Origin: an uncultured Clostridia bacterium
GTDB taxonomy: Bacteria; Bacillota; Clostridia; Oscillospirales; Ruminococcaceae
NCBI GenBank assembly: GCA_945931735.1
Contig: CAMEPN010000013.1
Span: forward strand, 1-14,139
Length of the DNA: 14,139 nt
Reading direction: 5' to 3'
The position numbers and the translations under genes are program-made. The notes under the pieces are model-generated. The model saw nothing but the letters and a program-made list of their open reading frames with translations, had not been told where the DNA came from and made no database searches. Numbering within the stretch: position 1 is the first letter of the stretch; each line of letters begins with the position of its first letter. Below are positions 2,675-11,232 of the stretch, piece by piece.

Positions 2675-5221
2675 TCATTTGCCCACGGCGGCGCCGCCTG
2701 CGACCAGCCTGCCGAGAAATTCGGTGGAATGGAGCGGTCTGCCGTTGAAAATTCCCTCGACGAGGTCGATGTCGAACTTTCTTACCTTGCCGAATATTTC
2801 GGCGTTGTCAACTCCGCGGATACATACGGAGATGTCCTTTTCGTGCGCAAGGTTTATTACGGAGCGCATGAACATATCGGAGATCGGGTCGCCCTTGAAG
2901 CGGTCGGCGCGTATTTTTACGGTCTTGACCGCGGGGTTGTGGAGCGGCGCGGTGGTGAAAAAGCTTTCGCCCATGTCGTCGGCGATGATGTTCACGCCTA
3001 TTTTCGCGAGCTGCTGGAGGAACATATTTCCCGTGTTTAGCGTGCCGGCGCTTTCGGACACGGAAATGCTGACGGCGGTCGGCGGGAGTGAGTATTCCAG
3101 CAGCGACCCGCGCAGCGCCTCGACGCAGGCGTCGGAGTTGAGAATATTTTCGGGTACGGCGTAGCTTACGCGGAAGTTCTCGAAGCCGTTCTCACGCACC
3201 GTCGCGCAGAATTCGCATATCCTGTCGATAACGTAGCGGTACATCTCGATAGAAAGCCCGAGCCTGTCGATTATGGGAAGGAACCTCTCGCGCGACACGA
3301 TGATGTCGTCGTTGCCCCAGAAGAGGTTTGCTTCGCAGCAGTGGAGGTCGCCGGAGTTTACGGCAAGTATCGGGGTGTACAGCAGGTAGAACCCGCGGAA
3401 CTCGTTCTCCGCTGCGTCGATGATAAGCTTTTTAACGCGGAGGTTATCGCTCAGCTGCTCCTCCAGCCCGTCGGAATAGAACACGGCGTCGCCGAGCCTG
3501 CGCTCCTTTGCAAGGCGGAGCGTCCTTGTCGCCGCCTTTATGCAGTCGAGGATATCCTCGGCGTCCTCGGGATATGTGGTAACTCCCGCGTAGATCTCGA
3601 GGTGGTGCTCGGTGTCCCTAAGGTACCAAGGCGAGCGGAATTTCGTTAGTATTGCCTGCGCGAGCTGGCGGGCTTCTTCAGCGTTGCAGCCCGTAAGGGT
3701 GATGAACAGAATATCGTTGCTGAAGCGGTAAACCTTTTTCTGCGAGGTGCAGGGTATGGCGGAGATGTATTCCGCAATGCTGCGGACAATGTCGTCGGCG
3801 TATTCGCAGCTGTAAATCTCGGAGATAGTCTTTAGGTTGGAAATTTCCGCCGAAATGACCGCGCCGCTCTGTCCGTCGGCGATAAGCGCCGCGAAGTCCT
3901 TTTCAAACATACTGCGGTTGGGGATATTGGTGGTGAAGTCGTAGTACGCGAGGCGGGCGAGGTGCTCCTGAGACTGCTCAAGCTCTGCCTCGATGATAGA
4001 CTTGTTTATTACGGTGGAGAGTATCTGCGTTATCGTTTTCAGCAGCTTTCTGCTGCGGTTGTTCCACTGATCGCTGTTCTTGGAGATGTATACGATAACG
4101 CCGCTTTTCTGCCCGTTTTTATAGGTCAGCGACATTGCGAAACTGCGGGTGCCGTTTTTGTTTGCGGAGATATTCTTCTCGTCGGCGAAAACGACGCTGC
4201 TGTAATCAAGCTCCTTTTCGACCGCTTCGTTGTATGTAAAGCCGGTCACCACGGGGAGCAGCATTCCGCTTTCGTCCCAGCGGTAGACCTTTGCCGACGC
4301 GCTCAGCCCAGAGTAAAACATGATGTCGTCAAGGCTGAAGTAGTCGCAGATAAGCGGGATAATGCCGCTGATGGAGGATTTTGTGTCGGGGCTTTGGAGA
4401 ATGAGGGAATAGATGTTGTTTATCAGTATCTGATCCTCAAAATTCTGCCCGAGCATTTTATTGGCGTTCTGTGAGTTATCCATCTCCTCGCCGAGCACGA
4501 CGTAGGAGTTCGCTATGCCCGATACGGTCTTTACCATGGTTTCGAGGAGCTGCGCGTTTGAGTCGACTGCTTCCTGCGATTCGCCCGCAATGACCCATGC
4601 CGCGACTGGCTGATGCTTCACGCGGATATTCTTCTTGCGCTGGTAGCTCATTTTGTTGAGGTTGGCGCGTTTATCCTGTCCCGAGGCGGCTGCAATGACC
4701 TTTCCGTCCGGGTCGACTATCGCGGAGAAAAGTCCCTTTATATGTGCGAACGGCTGCTGTATCCGCACGAGATAATCCTCGCCGAGGATATCTATGAGCG
4801 GGGGAGTGTTCTGCGCGGAGGTAAGGGAGTGCCTGCTCTTGCTGCGGTAGCGCGCCATGACCGCGTCGTCGCCGTCACAGTCGAGGTAAGCAGAAACATC
4901 GAACATCATGCCGTCCAGCTCGGACAGCATACCGTCGGCGGTGCGCTGCGCCGTGGCGGAGATGAAGTACCATTTATATTCGCCGTCGGTCATAATGCGC
5001 GCGTGGACGCGAAGCTCGTTTTCGGAGCCGTTTACAATCTCGTTTATTACCTCGCAGAACGGCTGATAGTCGTCGGGGTGAATTATTTCTCCCATCTGCA
5101 CCGTATTTTCGGCGGAGAACGGATTTGGCGCGGAAAGAAATTCAACGGGCAAGCCCGGTCTGAAACGCATTGAGAATGCCGCATTGCCGCTGCCTGAAAT
5201 CGCTTGTTCAAGTTTCGTCAA
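2675..5221 (-). CDS. PAS-sensor-GAF protein with degenerate GGDEF and EAL domains
   Basis: Soluble protein of about 848 residues in the c-di-GMP protein superfamily. Order of parts: PAS_3-like fold at about 1-115 (IHPDDY, then a GEYKWYFISATA strand), a second sensor-like region at about 140-240 of uncertain family, a GAF-like domain at about 265-400, a GGDEF-type domain at about 415-575, and an EAL-type domain at about 585-840. The GGDEF signature is replaced by SNDIL at 501-505, so cyclase activity is not expected. In the EAL domain the first Glu survives (E630 in EAN) and DDMG is at 748-751. However, the Asn motif, the LELTES Glu, the AEGVE Glu and the final QGY motif are changed, so hydrolysis is also unlikely. 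It may be a c-di-GMP sensor or a scaffold. The start is TTG at 5221, five bases after GAGGTGG; a GTG at 5230 overlaps that site. Confidence 0.85.
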   Translation of the reverse strand: MTKLEQAISGSGNAAFSMRFRPGLPVEFLSAPNPFSAENTVQMGEIIHPDDYQPFCEVINEIVNGSENELRVHARIMTDGEYKWYFISATAQRTADGMLSELDGMMFDVSAYLDCDGDDAVMARYRSKSRHSLTSAQNTPPLIDILGEDYLVRIQQPFAHIKGLFSAIVDPDGKVIAAASGQDKRANLNKMSYQRKKNIRVKHQPVAAWVIAGESQEAVDSNAQLLETMVKTVSGIANSYVVLGEEMDNSQNANKMLGQNFEDQILINNIYSLILQSPDTKSSISGIIPLICDYFSLDDIMFYSGLSASAKVYRWDESGMLLPVVTGFTYNEAVEKELDYSSVVFADEKNISANKNGTRSFAMSLTYKNGQKSGVIVYISKNSDQWNNRSRKLLKTITQILSTVINKSIIEAELEQSQEHLARLAYYDFTTNIPNRSMFEKDFAALIADGQSGAVISAEISNLKTISEIYSCEYADDIVRSIAEYISAIPCTSQKKVYRFSNDILFITLTGCNAEEARQLAQAILTKFRSPWYLRDTEHHLEIYAGVTTYPEDAEDILDCIKAATRTLRLAKERRLGDAVFYSDGLEEQLSDNLRVKKLIIDAAENEFRGFYLLYTPILAVNSGDLHCCEANLFWGNDDIIVSRERFLPIIDRLGLSIEMYRYVIDRICEFCATVRENGFENFRVSYAVPENILNSDACVEALRGSLLEYSLPPTAVSISVSESAGTLNTGNMFLQQLAKIGVNIIADDMGESFFTTAPLHNPAVKTVKIRADRFKGDPISDMFMRSVINLAHEKDISVCIRGVDNAEIFGKVRKFDIDLVEGIFNGRPLHSTEFLGRLVAGGAAVGK

Positions 5222-5263
5222 GAAAACCACCTCGTTTATTAATGTCGCAGCCGTGGCAATAAT

Positions 5264-5391: not shown

Positions 5392-5433
5392 GAAATTTTC
5401 ATATTCATTTGTCGGAAACGCCGCGCACGGGCA

Positions 5434-5463
5434 TTGACAATCTTGCGGCAGAGTCTGCATATT
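5434..5463 (+). promoter_or_regulatory. Possible promoter of the Asn/Gln-rich small gene
   Basis: A perfect TTGACA (5434-5439) is followed after 18 bases by CATATT (5458-5463), a 4-of-6 match to the -10 box. The -35 is strong and the -10 weak, which would suit a gene that needs an activator or a special growth state. If used, the leader is about 80 bases long. Confidence 0.4.
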
Positions 5464-5535
5464 TTCCGTCGGTCTGCGCAAAATAACCCTGCGGCAGAAA
5501 TTGCCGAAAAAACGTGAAACATTCATATAGTTCAC
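5443..5535 (+). promoter_or_regulatory. Structured leader before the Asn/Gln-rich gene
   Basis: TTGCGGCAGA (5443-5452) can pair with TCTGCGCAA (5473-5481), with one bulged G. A second copy of TGCGGCAGA at 5490-5498 can pair with the same TCTGC, so the two pairings exclude each other. CGGCA/TGCCG (5492-5506) and GTGAA/TTCAC (5514-5535) give two more short hairpins, the last one directly before the ribosome binding site. No known riboswitch class is recognised. Part of this region overlaps the proposed promoter, so the first arm is transcribed only if transcription starts further upstream. Confidence 0.3.
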
Positions 5536-5548
5536 AGGAGGAACCAAA

Positions 5549-5677
5549 ATGTCCAATCAGAATAATCAGAACAATCGTCAGCAGAACAACCAGCAGAACC
5601 AGAACAACCAGAACAATCAGCAGAACCAGCAGAATCAGAACAATCAGCAGAACAACCAGCAGAACCGCAGCAGATAA
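5549..5677 (+). CDS. 42-residue Asn/Gln-rich low-complexity protein
   Basis: Unrecognised small protein. It starts MSNQNNQNNRQQNN, continues as an irregular mix of QNN, QQN and QQNN blocks, and ends NRSR. Nineteen Asn and seventeen Gln make 36 of 42 residues, with three Arg, two Ser and no acidic, aromatic or hydrophobic residue after the initiator Met. All seventeen Gln codons are CAG, while Asn uses both AAC and AAT. A perfect AGGAGG (5536-5541) stands 7 bases before the ATG, and a hairpin with a T-rich tail follows the stop, so the frame is framed as a gene and not just a repeat. The other + frame gives Arg/Thr-rich text and the antisense frames a Leu/Val run; neither has a ribosome site. 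The composition recalls gamma-type spore proteins and prion-like segments, but none of the gamma-SASP repeat motifs is present. Function unknown. Confidence 0.72.
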   Translation: MSNQNNQNNRQQNNQQNQNNQNNQQNQQNQNNQQNNQQNRSR

Positions 5678-5691
5678 TCGCGGCAAATGCG

Positions 5692-5727
5692 CGGGCGGGA
5701 ATATCCTGCCCGTTACATATTTTCTAT
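5692..5727 (+). terminator. Probable terminator of the Asn/Gln-rich gene
   Basis: CGGGCGGGA (5692-5700) and TCCTGCCCG (5704-5712) pair over nine positions with one G-U pair and a three-base loop, followed by a T-rich stretch. It lies 15 bases past the stop and ends where the next promoter begins. Confidence 0.65.
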
Positions 5728-5755
5728 TGACATAAAACCTCAAACGGGTTATAAT
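5727..5755 (+). promoter_or_regulatory. Consensus sigma-A promoter for the DUF308-GH3 operon
   Basis: A perfect TTGACA (5727-5732), a 17-base spacer and a perfect TATAAT (5750-5755). Transcription would start near 5762, giving a leader of about 29 bases. This is the strongest-looking mRNA promoter in the window. Confidence 0.92.
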
Positions 5756-5790
5756 AAAGTAAATAATACTTTATTACGGAGGTAATCGCA

Positions 5791-6378
5791 ATGGATGCCG
5801 AAAAACTCAAAGGTATGAGAAAAAACCTTGTCATCATGTCTATGCTGGAGCTTGTGGGCGGACTTTTCATGATAATCTGCAACGCGTATTCCCTTGAAAC
5901 GGTCGTGAAAGTTTTGGGGATAATCGCGGCGGCATACGGACTGGTGAGCCTGCTCGTATGGCTCGCTAAAAAGGAAAAGCAGAACGGCGCGGCGGTCATT
6001 ATCACCGCGATACTCGGCGTTGTTGCGGGCGCGGCTCTTATTTTCCTTACGGAATATGTCATGTCGGTGTTCACTATCATTGCGGGCGTTATTTCCGCGG
6101 TGCTTGGCATCGTGAAAATACCCAATATGTTCGCGATAAAAAAGGGCGGGTACAGCAGGTGGTACATAATGCTCATTCCCATCGCGCTGACCGTTGCCGC
6201 GGGTATAGTTATCGGGCTTAACCCGTATAATTCCGACCAGATTACTGCGATAATCATAGGCGTATCGCTCATACTGTGCTGCGCGGCGGACATTATCGGA
6301 ACAGCGGGCGCCGGCGCGGCTGCAAAGGAGCTTATCATTGACGCGGAGGGCACGGAAAATCCCCCCGCGGAAAAGTAA
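5791..6378 (+). CDS. DUF308/HdeD-like membrane protein
   Basis: Small integral membrane protein of 195 residues. A charged N-terminus (MDAEKLKGMRKN) is followed by about six hydrophobic segments arranged as three pairs, at roughly 13-30, 38-57, 66-83, 88-107, 126-144 and 151-175, then a charged soluble tail rich in Glu. This paired-helix pattern with Gly/Ala-rich helices is that of the DUF308 family, whose best known member is HdeD of the enterobacterial acid-resistance region; molecular function in Firmicutes is not established. GGAGG is 8 bases before the ATG, which lies 36 bases past the -10 box. The GH3 gene begins 18 bases after its stop, so the two are almost certainly one operon. Whether the protein has any role in sugar use is inference from that position only. 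Confidence 0.8.
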   Translation: MDAEKLKGMRKNLVIMSMLELVGGLFMIICNAYSLETVVKVLGIIAAAYGLVSLLVWLAKKEKQNGAAVIITAILGVVAGAALIFLTEYVMSVFTIIAGVISAVLGIVKIPNMFAIKKGGYSRWYIMLIPIALTVAAGIVIGLNPYNSDQITAIIIGVSLILCCAADIIGTAGAGAAAKELIIDAEGTENPPAEK

Positions 6379-6396: not shown

Positions 6397-9165
6397 ATGA
6401 TCAGGATAACTCTCGACTGGAACAAATATCTCGACACAGCGCGCGAGGCGGTGTCGGAGGGCATAGTGCTGCTTGAGAACAACGGCGCGCTCCCTCTTAA
6501 GGAGGGCTGCACTGTTTCGCTTTTCGGGCGTATGCAGGAGCACTACTACAAGAGCGGCACAGGCTCGGGCGGAATGGTGAATGTTTCTAAGGTGTGGGGC
6601 ATTCCCGAGGGGCTTGCCGAATGCGGCGTTAAGCTCAACGAGGAGCTTCGCGGGATATATTCACAATGGTCTGCGGAAAACCCCGTAGACCTCGGCGTGG
6701 GCTGGGGCGGAGAGCCGTGGTCGCAGAAAGAAATGCCGCTTTCCGACGAGGTTGCTGCGAGCGCCGCCGCTAAGTCCGACTGCGCGGTGTGCATAATCGC
6801 GAGGACGGCGGGTGAGGAGCAGGATCAGTCCGACGAGGGCGGCTCCTACCGTCTGACCGAAACCGAGCTTGAAATGCTGAAAACCGTCCGCAGGCATTTT
6901 TCCAAAATGACCGTTCTGCTTAACGTCGGCGGTATCATCGACATGAGCTTTGTCGGCGAGGTTAAGCCCGACGCGGTTATGTACATATGGCAGGGCGGAA
7001 TGACAGGCGGACTTGGCACTGCGGACGTACTCACGGGTAAGGTATCCCCGAGCGGAAAGCTCCCCGACACCATTGCGTACAGCATTTCCGACTACCCCTC
7101 CGCTCCGTATTTCGGCGGCAGGGAGCGCAATTTCTATTCCGAGGACATCTACGTCGGCTACCGCTATTTTGAAACATTCGCGAAGGACAGGGTGATGTAT
7201 CCGTTCGGGTATGGGCTTTCCTACACGAAATTCGACGTTTCTGCGGACAGGATAAGGACTGACGGCGGCAGCGTTTCGTTCGACGCAGTGGTAAGAAATA
7301 CAGGCTTCCGCTCGGGCAAGGAAGTTGTTCAGGTGTATTTCGAGGCGCCGCAGGGGAAGCTCGGAAAGCCGCTTCGCGCGCTGTGCGCATACGCGAAAAC
7401 AGGCACGCTTGCACCCGAGGGCTTCGCAAGGCTGCATTTCGATATTTCCAAGGAAGAGATGGCGTCCTTTGACGACAGCGGCGCGACAGGCTTTAAGGAC
7501 TGTCTTGTGCTTGAGGAGGGGGAATACTCCGTATACCTCGGCACCGATGTCCGCTCCGCAGAGAAGATCTGCACCTTTAACATTGACCGCACATACGCTG
7601 TGAGCCGCCTTTCCGAGGCGTGCGCGCCCGTGCAGCCGTTCGAGAGAATGCGCCCCGAGCGTGACGGGGAGGGCTTCAAGCCCGCATTCGAGCCTGTTCC
7701 GCTTATGGAAAAGGATATGGACGTCCGCCGCGCCGAAAACCTGCCCCGCGAGATTTCGCAGACAGGGGACAGGGGGATAAAACTCGCGGACGTGAAGAGC
7801 GGCAATAACACCATGGACGAGTTTATCGCCCAGCTTTCCGACGACGACCTTTCCTGCATCATACGCGGGGAGGGCATGGGAAGTCCGCGCGTTACGGCGG
7901 GAACAGCGGCGGCTTTCGGCGGAGTTTCCGACGGACTGACCTCGCTCGGGATACCTGCGGGCTGCTGCGACGACGGCCCGTCGGGAATGCGGCTCGACTG
8001 CGGCACCAACGCGTTCAGCCTGCCGAACGGAACGCTGCTCGCAAGCTCGTTCAACACCGAGATACAGCAGCGGCTGTTTTCGCTGGCGGGCATTGAGATA
8101 GCCGCGAACAACGTGGAATGCCTGCTCGGCCCGGGAATGAATATCCACCGCCACCCGCTCAACGGACGTAATTTTGAATATTTCAGCGAGGATCCGTATC
8201 TGACGGGCACCTGTGCGGCTGCGCAGCTCCGAGGGCTTCACAGCGCGGGCGTTACGGGAACGATAAAGCATTTCTGCGGAAACAACCAAGAAACGGGTCG
8301 CCATGTCATTGACTCCGTGATATCCAAGCGTGCGCTCCGCGAGATATACCTCAAGGGCTTCGAGATAGCCGTAAAGCAGGGCGGCGCGCGCAGCGTGATG
8401 ACGACCTACGGCTCGCTCAACGGCATATGGACGGCGGGCTGCTACGACCTCTGCACGACGATTCTCCGTGAGGAGTGGGGCTTCGACGGCTTTGTGATGA
8501 CCGACTGGTGGGCTAACATAAGCGAGCGGGGAAAGGCTCCCGATAAGAACGACTTTGCGCAGATGGCGCGCGCTCAGAACGACACATATATGGTATGCGC
8601 GGACGCGGCGCATAATGCGACCGGCGACAACACTCTTTCCTCTCTTGCTGCGGGAACGCTCACGCGGGGCGAGCTTCAGCGCAACGCCGCAAACGTCTGC
8701 CGCTTCCTCATCAACACCCGCGCGATGAGCAGGCTGTGCGGAAATGCGCCGGAGATTGAGATAATCAACCGTCCCGACGACGGCGCTGCGGCTGACAGCG
8801 GCGAGGTAGTATTCTATGACCTTGACGGCAGCCTGACGATCCCTCTGGACAATGTTCCCGCAGAAAGGGGGAGCAGCTTCGTATTCGCCCTTGATGTCAA
8901 GATAATCGGCGCGTACGACGTGACGATAGCGGCTTCCTCCGACTCCTCCGAAACGGCGCAGATTCCCGTTACGTTCTTCACGACGGGCTTCCCCGCGGGA
9001 GTTTACACCTTCAACGGCACGAACGGTGCGCTCGCGGAGCTTACAAGGGACGCGCGGCTTTACTCCCGCTTTATCACCTGCCGCCTGTATTTCGGACAGA
9101 GCGGGCTGAAATTAAAGGAGATCCGTTTCGATTACAAGAACGATATCCCCGACGGACAGCCGTGA
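6397..9165 (+). CDS. GH3 beta-glucosidase-type enzyme with reversed domain order
   Basis: Cytosolic glycoside hydrolase family 3 protein of 922 residues, no signal peptide. The usual order is permuted: the alpha/beta sandwich domain (GH3 C-terminal type) comes first at about 5-275, then a fibronectin III-like domain at about 280-400, a linker, and the TIM-barrel domain (GH3 N-terminal type) at about 470-770. The Ruminococcus albus and Butyrivibrio beta-glucosidases have this order. The barrel carries KHFCGNNQE from K624 and the nucleophile Asp703 in GFVMTDWW. By alignment in memory with Thermotoga Bgl3B (SGEG motif), Glu140 in AGEEQDQ is the likely acid/base. The last 130 or so residues (about 790-922) are an extra beta-rich region that may be a carbohydrate-binding module. 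GGAAAGG precedes the ATG. Substrate is uncertain: beta-glucosidase, beta-xylosidase or a related activity. Confidence 0.88.
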   Translation: MIRITLDWNKYLDTAREAVSEGIVLLENNGALPLKEGCTVSLFGRMQEHYYKSGTGSGGMVNVSKVWGIPEGLAECGVKLNEELRGIYSQWSAENPVDLGVGWGGEPWSQKEMPLSDEVAASAAAKSDCAVCIIARTAGEEQDQSDEGGSYRLTETELEMLKTVRRHFSKMTVLLNVGGIIDMSFVGEVKPDAVMYIWQGGMTGGLGTADVLTGKVSPSGKLPDTIAYSISDYPSAPYFGGRERNFYSEDIYVGYRYFETFAKDRVMYPFGYGLSYTKFDVSADRIRTDGGSVSFDAVVRNTGFRSGKEVVQVYFEAPQGKLGKPLRALCAYAKTGTLAPEGFARLHFDISKEEMASFDDSGATGFKDCLVLEEGEYSVYLGTDVRSAEKICTFNIDRTYAVSRLSEACAPVQPFERMRPERDGEGFKPAFEPVPLMEKDMDVRRAENLPREISQTGDRGIKLADVKSGNNTMDEFIAQLSDDDLSCIIRGEGMGSPRVTAGTAAAFGGVSDGLTSLGIPAGCCDDGPSGMRLDCGTNAFSLPNGTLLASSFNTEIQQRLFSLAGIEIAANNVECLLGPGMNIHRHPLNGRNFEYFSEDPYLTGTCAAAQLRGLHSAGVTGTIKHFCGNNQETGRHVIDSVISKRALREIYLKGFEIAVKQGGARSVMTTYGSLNGIWTAGCYDLCTTILREEWGFDGFVMTDWWANISERGKAPDKNDFAQMARAQNDTYMVCADAAHNATGDNTLSSLAAGTLTRGELQRNAANVCRFLINTRAMSRLCGNAPEIEIINRPDDGAAADSGEVVFYDLDGSLTIPLDNVPAERGSSFVFALDVKIIGAYDVTIAASSDSSETAQIPVTFFTTGFPAGVYTFNGTNGALAELTRDARLYSRFITCRLYFGQSGLKLKEIRFDYKNDIPDGQP

Positions 9166-9299: not shown

Positions 9300-10961
9300 T
9301 TAGTTGACTTTTTTGAACTGCGCGTCGAAATCATTCTGAGGCAGCGGCTTTGAGTAATAGAACCCCTGCGCCGCGTCGCAGCCGCAATGGCTTAGGAAAA
9401 GCGCCTGCTCCTTTGTTTCGACACCCTCGGCGATGATGTCCAGCCCGATATCGCGGGACATTGATATCGTGTGTGCGATTATTTTTCTGCCGCGCTCTGA
9501 TTCCATAAATTCGGACAGGAAGTCGCGGTCTATCTTTATGACGTCAAATCGGGTAGCCTTTAGCATATTGAGCGATGAATAGCCCGAGCCGAAGTCGTCC
9601 ATTAGCATGGTAAAGCCGGTGTCCTTGAGTTTTCCGACGACCTCTTCTACGCCCGCAGATTCGGCGGACTCGGTTATTTCAAGCTCCAACAGCTCGAACG
9701 GGATATCGTATTTTTTTACCAGCTTGGATATCTGCCCGACAACGTCGAAGCTGTGGAGGTATTCCCGCGAAACGTTGACCGAGATAGGTACAGGGGTCAG
9801 TCCGCTGTCTATCCAGCTGCGGATTTTTTTGCAGGCTTCCTCCCAGATAAACCGGTCGAGCTTTACGATGAAGCCGTTTTTTTCAAACAATGGGATAAAC
9901 TCAGCGGGGGATATCATGCCCTTTTCGGGGGATATCCAGCGTGTGAGAGCCTCGGCGCCGATTATTTTACCGGTGGAAATAGAATATTTTGGCTGGAGAT
10001 ACATCACGAACTCGTTGTTGAGCAGCGCGTTCTGCATATCGTCCTCCATTTCCTTTTTCCTATGGATATCGCGGCGCATGGAGTCGTCGAAGAAGCATAT
10101 GTTGTTTATCGCGCTGCCTTTTATGGAGCGCCGCGCGATTGTCGCGTTGTCGCCGTAAATACGGGTTGGACCGTTGATTTTGTCGGCTGTCGCGACGCCG
10201 AAAACCATCTTGTATTCCATTCCGTTGAAGTCGCTGAGCAGCGTTTCAAGGCGGTGGATAAAGTCGATCAGCTCCTGCTTTTCCTCGAACGCGGTGACTA
10301 TCATGAAAACGTCTGCCGTAAGGCGCGTGAAGGGCTGCTCTGCGGAGCATATCATGCCGAGGGAGCTGCCGATGAATTTTAAGAGTTCATCGCCTGCTTG
10401 TTCACCGTAGGTTTCGTTTAATATTTTGAAGCGCTCGATGTCGAACTGGATAAATGCAAATTTTCTGCCGGGGTTATTTCTGATGAGATCCTGCACTCTT
10501 TTGGTGAAAAGCGAGGGGTTCATATCGGAGGTGAATTTTGCCGCCTCGAGGGCGAAAAGCTCCTTTTCGTTATATGGGCGGACATTGAAATTCAAATCGG
10601 TTATGCGGCCGTTTTGGTCAAGCAGGAACAGCGCATAGACATGGCACAGGGCGTAATCGGCGTTCGGGCTTATGCGCATTTTTATTTCGGCGGTAATATT
10701 TTTCTGTGTTGTGCCGCGGAGTATGCCATTTTCGATCTGCTCGCAGAAAATATCAAATTCGGACATCGACTCGGGTGACACGATATCGTTTTCGCGCATA
10801 TAGTCGAGGGGATCGAGCGTGTTTTCGGGGAACATATTCCCGCAAAGCTGTTCGACATAATTATCCGAAACGCTCCATACATAGTGCAGCGTTCCGCTGT
10901 CATTAGATATGATCTTGAGTAATTTATCGGCACATCTTTCCGATGTTCCGGTGATATTCAT
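9300..10961 (-). CDS. c-di-GMP phosphodiesterase: PAS-like, degenerate GGDEF, intact EAL
   Basis: Soluble protein of 553 residues predicted to hydrolyse c-di-GMP to pGpG. A PAS_3-like region occupies about 20-135, a GGDEF-type domain about 160-305 and an EAL domain about 315-548. The GGDEF signature is TADVF at 215-219, so no cyclase activity is expected; such domains often act as GTP-sensing modules. All main EAL residues are visible: E337 in GAEALTRW, the Asn in SVNVS, the Glu in LELEITES, DDFG at 455-458, the Lys in VIKID, AEGVET, and the Gln in AQGFYYSKP. The frame is open to 11111, but the ATG at 10961 is chosen because GGTGGTGAG precedes it and the longer form begins upstream of the promoter. 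It is the active-looking counterpart to the degenerate protein at 2675-5221. Confidence 0.9.
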   Translation of the reverse strand: MNITGTSERCADKLLKIISNDSGTLHYVWSVSDNYVEQLCGNMFPENTLDPLDYMRENDIVSPESMSEFDIFCEQIENGILRGTTQKNITAEIKMRISPNADYALCHVYALFLLDQNGRITDLNFNVRPYNEKELFALEAAKFTSDMNPSLFTKRVQDLIRNNPGRKFAFIQFDIERFKILNETYGEQAGDELLKFIGSSLGMICSAEQPFTRLTADVFMIVTAFEEKQELIDFIHRLETLLSDFNGMEYKMVFGVATADKINGPTRIYGDNATIARRSIKGSAINNICFFDDSMRRDIHRKKEMEDDMQNALLNNEFVMYLQPKYSISTGKIIGAEALTRWISPEKGMISPAEFIPLFEKNGFIVKLDRFIWEEACKKIRSWIDSGLTPVPISVNVSREYLHSFDVVGQISKLVKKYDIPFELLELEITESAESAGVEEVVGKLKDTGFTMLMDDFGSGYSSLNMLKATRFDVIKIDRDFLSEFMESERGRKIIAHTISMSRDIGLDIIAEGVETKEQALFLSHCGCDAAQGFYYSKPLPQNDFDAQFKKVN

Positions 10962-11014
10962 AAAACTCACCACCAATCCGTTTTTGTTACAGAAACAATT
11001 TTTACGTTTGATAG

Positions 11015-11028
11015 CCGCGATCTCGCGG
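11015..11028 (-). promoter_or_regulatory. Short GC inverted repeat in the leader of the EAL gene
   Basis: CCGCGA and TCGCGG, two bases apart, lie within about 30 bases of the expected transcription start. As RNA they form a five-pair hairpin with a four-base loop; as DNA they could be an operator. Too short to assign. Confidence 0.3.
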
Positions 11029-11049
11029 TTCCAACTTGATCTTATGTAT

Positions 11050-11078
11050 ATTATAGCACATTGTTTTTCATTTTTCAA
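11050..11078 (-). promoter_or_regulatory. Extended -10 promoter of the EAL phosphodiesterase gene
   Basis: On the minus strand there is TTGAAA (11073-11078), a 17-base spacer and TATAAT (11050-11055) preceded by TGC, an extended -10. The leader to the ATG at 10961 is about 80 bases. It has none of the conserved core of the c-di-GMP-I riboswitch. The remaining bases 11080-11230 are AT-rich and I see nothing else in them. Confidence 0.88.
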
Positions 11079-11232
11079 GCCTAATTTTGTGGAATTGTAT
11101 AAAAAATGCATTAAGAAGAATACTTTTTTCTACATTTTCACCCCAGCTTAACACTTATTATGTGCCAAATGCCGACGGTCGTGCAGCTGATAATCTGCTT
11201 CAAAAAAATATGAATTAATTTGAAAAAAGTGC

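Follow-up and report, generated by a model that had tools for sequence, protein, structure and literature searches.

The window, as we call the whole stretch of 14,139 nucleotides from a gut bacterium analysed here, carries a conserved gene for a very small protein composed mostly of Asn and Gln, and judging from the sequence evidence, it is very probable that this is a real gene with a forespore promoter. We propose, with about an even chance of being right, that the product is a disordered protein made in the forespore which works like the gamma-type SASP known as SspE, serving as a bulk protein of the spore core and as a reserve at germination. In short, the peptide may store nutrients for the spore or protect it, and ordinary gene searches overlook it. 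The features of the gene are collected in Table 1.

Table 1 Features of the N/Q peptide gene in the window.
Feature	Position	Strand	Basis
-35 box TGCATA of the putative sigma-G/F promoter	5456..5461	+	promoter scoring; register conserved across the genus
-10 box CAAAATA, 17 nt 3' of the -35 box	5479..5485	+	promoter scoring
Small leader hairpin CGGCA-N5-TGCCG	5492..5506	+	CGG...CCG at the same position in most relatives; fold in the window z only -1.42
Inverted repeat GTGAA...TTCAC, abutting the Shine-Dalgarno site	5514..5535	+	read from the sequence
Shine-Dalgarno site AGGAGG	5536..5541	+	GGAGG present in 36/36 genus loci
CDS of the N/Q peptide, 42 aa	5549..5677	+	translation, genus-wide frame conservation, comparison of indels and codons
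Terminator-like hairpin, 10 pairs, then TACATATTTT	5691..5713	+	hairpin search, fold compared with shuffles

A conserved Asn/Gln coding sequence

Translation bore out the composition given in the preliminary description, as 36 of the 42 codons specify Asn or Gln. The remark that the product lacks a hydrophobic core also stands; the window copy consists of M, S, N, Q and R only and contains neither a cysteine nor any segment that is hydrophobic or would act in export. Among ORFs of at least 25 aa on both strands of the window, this is the only one with at least 50% N+Q, and a scan of 281,614 bases from 90 other fetched loci at a cut-off of 60% N+Q returned only the peptide gene and its nearest ortholog. 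At the DNA level, the gene is a diverged tandem repeat with units of 9, 18 and 27 bases. Such short repetitive DNA with hairpins on either side, for which protein searches give no usable homologs, could in principle be a slipped repeat or a small RNA that is open in one frame by chance, and the comparison with relatives makes this reading scarcely credible. When positions 5430-5790 were used as a DNA query against 43 genomes of the same genus, 36 genomes were hit at 41 places, 40 of which were examined (all but a weak secondary match in G015). The best locus of each of these 36 genomes encodes a peptide of 26-44 aa with 59-88% N+Q behind a Shine-Dalgarno site, starting with MSN in 35 cases, so that retention of start, ribosome site and frame, a check set beforehand, held at 36/36 genus loci. 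The expectation that indels in the repeat come in multiples of three held as well for every indel that separates the window gene from its nearest ortholog. The only two close pairs that are ungapped and usable show seven codon differences, six of them synonymous, against about 18% expected. The strong preference for CAG described below likewise argues against a non-coding element. The peptide ORF is thus confirmed as a conserved gene. Within the genus, four weak secondary DNA matches show no N/Q peptide ORF behind a Shine-Dalgarno site, and seven of the 43 genomes (G061, G005, G032, G018, G030, G001 and G024) gave no match to the DNA query, G001 being 98% complete.

Genes of this kind occur well beyond the genus. 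At the order level, a DNA query taken from the relative L042 hit 59 of 394 genomes in 37 of 168 genera; loci from 30 of these 59 genomes were examined, and 26 of the 27 that lie outside the genus, from 11 families, contain a standalone ORF of 36-80 aa with at least 40% N+Q (L160 being the sole locus without one). At the class level, DNA matches were found in 13 of 391 genomes. Outside the order, five of nine loci (L195, L197, L199, L202 and L203) have an N/Q ORF, and six of the 13 class-level loci besides the window's own (L192, L193, L196, L198, L200 and L201) have none. A coding-motif scan of named genomes gave 30 loci, mostly in assemblies of uncultured Clostridia, Oscillospiraceae and Ruminococcaceae; eight of them were translated, four of which encode N/Q peptides (L162, L166, L171 and L176) and four do not (L163, L164, L168 and L169). 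A divergent yebC neighbour occurs in two families, at L135, L140 and L141 in f3 and at L138 and L147 in f13, with a profile confirming three of the five, which argues for common descent at least there.

Protein searches miss this family. A protein query of 61 genomes recovered the window's own copy only, none of 436 candidates from a database of 5.8 billion proteins passed at E 0.001, and the single hit of a further search (P0001, E 0.46) belongs to the family, its start being placed upstream. Most likely, composition correction removes the relatives, and the gene is indeed easily overlooked, as had been anticipated. Where searches by protein homology fail, low-complexity genes can thus still be found through their DNA and the context of their promoters.

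Promoter, leader and expression signals

The preliminary description had pointed to an upstream TTGACA, whose reading as the promoter we had to abandon. This box, at 5434, pairs with CATATT at a distance of 18 nt, and as a sigma-A promoter it was rejected because nothing comparable is present in the nearest relative (best sigma-A score 7/12) and sigma-A scores show no excess over shuffles (z 1.4 in the genus and -0.1 in the order). The conserved promoter is instead of the forespore sigma-G/F type, a well-supported assignment from sequence comparison within which sigma-F and sigma-G are indistinguishable here. The sigma-G consensus of B. subtilis is TGHATA-N17/18-CATAMTA, and promoters were scored against it on a scale with a maximum of 13. 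Genus copies have TGAATA-type and CAAAATA-type boxes with a spacing of 17 nt, and several copies from other families have CATACTA. Scores of at least 11 were obtained for 35 of the 36 genus copies (shuffles: mean 1.0, maximum 4) and for 21 of the 26 other-genus copies (shuffles: mean 0.57, maximum 3). Being related to one another, the genus copies do not amount to independent observations, and the other-genus copies are the better test. In the same loci, only one of 69 other ORFs used as a control scored at least 11. Against shuffles, sigma-G reached z 22.9 in the genus and 19.4 in the order, whereas the excess was smaller for sigma-E/K (8.2 and 5.3) and for the sigma-G boxes with wrong spacers (5.8 to 9.1). 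Of the five N/Q loci outside the order, three scored at least 11, with a perfect 13 at L202, and the named-genome loci of Acutalibacter (L171) and Ruminococcus (L176) scored 10/13 and 8/13.

The promoters of known spore genes were also compared. Starts were located in 28 of 30 alpha/beta-SASP loci of the genus, and 21 of these 28 genes have TTAATA-N17-(A/G)ATAATA, with a score of 11 and the same 17-nt layout as the peptide gene. As a positive control, gpr was mostly negative, with scores of at least 11 in 4 of 30 cases, including the gpr of the window genome itself.

The view that the ORF is a gene in its own right, equipped with a ribosome site and a terminator-like hairpin, is also upheld (Table 1). 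The hairpin is followed by a loose T tract in the window, and a hairpin with TTTACATATTTT is seen again 3' of the peptide gene in many relatives. The fold of 5670-5735 is more stable than that of most shuffles and is not exceptional (z -1.88, 9/200 shuffles as good), and folds after the stop codon are below -8 kcal/mol in 60 of 62 copies, a raw count with no shuffled control. In the leader, the CGG...CCG stem is conserved with weak covariation, as one pair changes in a compensatory manner and is broken in 9 of the 35 sequences. At the place of the inverted repeat at 5514-5535, L034, L036, L039 and L064 have GGAGC...GCTCC, possibly a compensatory swap. Most alpha/beta-SASP genes of the genus (L072-L099) have their own inverted repeat, GCAAAGG...CCTTTGC, right after the promoter, and together with the hairpin in the peptide leader this suggests that a hairpin may stand at the 5' end of either forespore mRNA. 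A perfect TTGACA-N17-TATAAT promoter was also noted at 5727-5755 of the window, right after the terminator-like hairpin and before the DUF308 gene at 5791.

Codon use points in the direction of high expression. The CAG:CAA ratio of Gln codons is 438:4 in the genus peptide genes and 419:24 in the 26 other-genus copies, compared with 132:0 in SASP genes, 210:87 in the longest ORFs of 35 genus loci and 87:11 in seven other genes of the window. This bias, which is shared with the SASP genes, suggests that the peptide is highly expressed.

Neighbourhood and candidate roles

Three genes recur upstream of the peptide gene on its own strand, and at 24 of the 36 genus loci the fetched flank contains one or more of them. 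They are spmA/spmB/DUF2508-type genes, two for 'Gate' proteins of PF07670 and one for a protein resembling DUF2508; the first Gate protein is presumably SpmA, and relatives of the second go by the names 'spore maturation protein' and 'spore maturation protein B'. Viewed in reverse, 19 of 30 spmB-type loci have the peptide gene. Two reports place spmAB of C. difficile under the control of sigma-E in the mother cell (PMC5311115, PMC3789822), so the linkage suggests a connection with sporulation, not expression in the same compartment. In the window and the nearest relative, the peptide gene precedes a DUF308 gene and does not lie 3' of spm-type genes. A DUF308 match occurs in 33 of the 43 genus genomes, and a scan of 30 DUF308 loci found adjacency only in the window and in G035, the nearest relative; functional coupling to DUF308 or to a GGDEF/EAL gene was rejected. 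In the window, the DUF308 and GH3 genes are flanked by two minus-strand genes for GGDEF-EAL proteins (2675-5230 and 9300-11111), and the glycoside hydrolase family 3 protein at 6397-9165 has a permuted order, with the C-terminal domain before the N-terminal domain.

The genus has much of the equipment for sporulation. Alpha/beta-SASP was found in 41 of the 43 genomes and an spmB-type gene in 35. GPR occurs in 39, including the window genome, and so does a full-length sigma-G-type protein (389-416 bits; partial in two genomes and absent from two), every score of which is below the NCBI cut-off of 457 yet far above the next hits. Neither SASP nor spmB was found in the window's own 2.15-Mb assembly, which is 70% complete. 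Each of the 41 SASP-bearing genomes yielded a single alpha/beta-SASP gene, and the GPR protease of the genus is short (237-250 aa, L206-L235), covering about positions 15-249 of a 353-position profile. Across the order, SASP was found in 53 of the 59 genomes that match the DNA query and in 279 of the 335 that do not; it does not discriminate, and its co-occurrence was dropped as proof of a sporulation link.

The 36 genus copies of the product average 38% N, 38% Q, 8% S and 9% K+R, and all 62 copies, of 26-80 aa with a mean of about 75% N+Q, have a positive net charge (+1 to +3 in the genus, +2 to +6 in the 26 others). There is a strong avoidance of runs in which N or Q stands three or more times, with 12 against 78 in shuffles for the genus and 23 against 82 for the order, a pattern that speaks against an amyloid role and would be compatible with a condensate. 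A spore-packing role had been listed in the preliminary description and is contained in our proposal, whereas the RNA-binding and prion-like roles listed beside it gained no evidence.

Our preferred reading, of an SspE-like bulk protein and reserve, can be put as a sequence of steps. The gene would be transcribed as a monocistronic forespore gene by RNA polymerase with sigma-G (or sigma-F) from TGCATA-N17-CAAAATA, and the strong Shine-Dalgarno site and favoured codons would give a high output of the peptide. This small, soluble, slightly basic and disordered protein would accumulate in the spore core and would be degraded at germination to Asn and Gln, a reserve of nitrogen and carbon. The conserved gene, promoter type, codon bias and neighbourhood are the parts supported at the sequence level; core location, abundance, degradation and the reserve role are what we infer beyond them. 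A bulk Asn/Gln store would fit the composition, the signs of expression, the drift in sequence and a report that clostridia have no SspE (PMC3533761). Against the proposal stand the result with gpr (4/30), the non-discriminating SASP distribution, the failure to find SASP and spmB in the window genome, the sigma-E control of spmAB, the missing GPR-type cleavage site, the seven genus genomes with no match and the sigma-E/K scores above shuffles.

The same expression evidence would suit a protein that is made in the forespore and is not mainly a food store, acting as a hydrophilic filler that stabilises the core during dehydration or as a reversible Asn/Gln condensate. We regard this as possible and clearly less probable. 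Run avoidance and the constant positive charge (+1 to +6) would be a constraint on pattern that a pure store does not need, and the linked spmAB-type genes have a part in dehydrating the core of B. subtilis and C. perfringens spores (PMC3789822). However, run avoidance might also stem from the loss of slippage-prone repeats, and the searches gave no match to a known family of protectants or condensates. In a bolder form, which we consider rather doubtful, the peptides would be a class-wide clostridial spore-core family that is invisible to homology search, with selection acting on a two-letter composition and N/Q spacing (no long runs, slight positive charge) and not on sequence; a non-amyloid, reversible condensed or glassy phase would pack the dehydrating core, be consumed at germination and replace gamma-SASP.

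A small regulatory or surface protein, such as a GerG-type coat or germination factor of the mother cell, a toxin/antitoxin-like peptide or an RNA-binding peptide, is quite improbable. There is a precedent in GerG, an Asn-rich gel-forming sporulation protein of C. difficile (PMC5241399), and the sigma-E/K models do score above shuffles, but the sigma-G-type excess is far larger, the window peptide has none of the cysteine, hydrophobic or export features noted above, and no partner gene is retained across families. Apart from its role, the family offers dozens of natural proteins with about 75% Asn/Gln, apparently selected against long runs, as a test bed for aggregation avoidance.

Comparison with known spore proteins

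Sixteen family members gave no match at E 10 in Pfam and one irrelevant weak match in NCBIfam, both tests being weakened by composition filters, and the peptide does not match the alpha/beta-type SASP profile PF00269. In the open-access literature, we found no paper on such an Asn/Gln mini-protein family. Like the peptide gene, the alpha/beta-type SASP genes occur in the same genomes and have the -35/17-nt/-10 layout and the CAG bias; unlike the peptide, their products have a conserved, fold-forming sequence, and the two show no sequence relation. Gamma-type SASPs are rich in Asn and Gln and carry a GPR cleavage site motif, and their variability is reportedly the subject of a study by Vyas in 2011. 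As the residue set of the window peptide means that a GPR cleavage site cannot exist, and no profile matches, we agree with the earlier statement that it is not a gamma-type SASP by motif, and our claim is that it works like one, not that it is one. SspE, at least about twice as long as the N/Q peptide, differs from it in this respect and in the profile match and GPR-type site that the peptide lacks. GerG of C. difficile is likewise a sporulation protein with Asn-rich low-complexity repeats, but its repeats are rich in Asn, Met and Pro and lie inside a larger protein, which the composition of the N/Q peptide does not fit; GerG has been reported from C. difficile only and acts on the loading of the Csp germination proteins (PMC5241399).

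The closest parallel is with SspE of Bacilli, which the peptide resembles in being small, disordered and Asn/Gln-rich and in its putative sigma-G expression in the forespore. The N/Q peptide occurs in Clostridia, a class with many gut spore-formers in which SspE, the major gamma-SASP, is reported to be missing (PMC3533761). A conserved N/Q mini-protein that has a promoter of forespore type and is found in at least 11 families of one order would close this gap.
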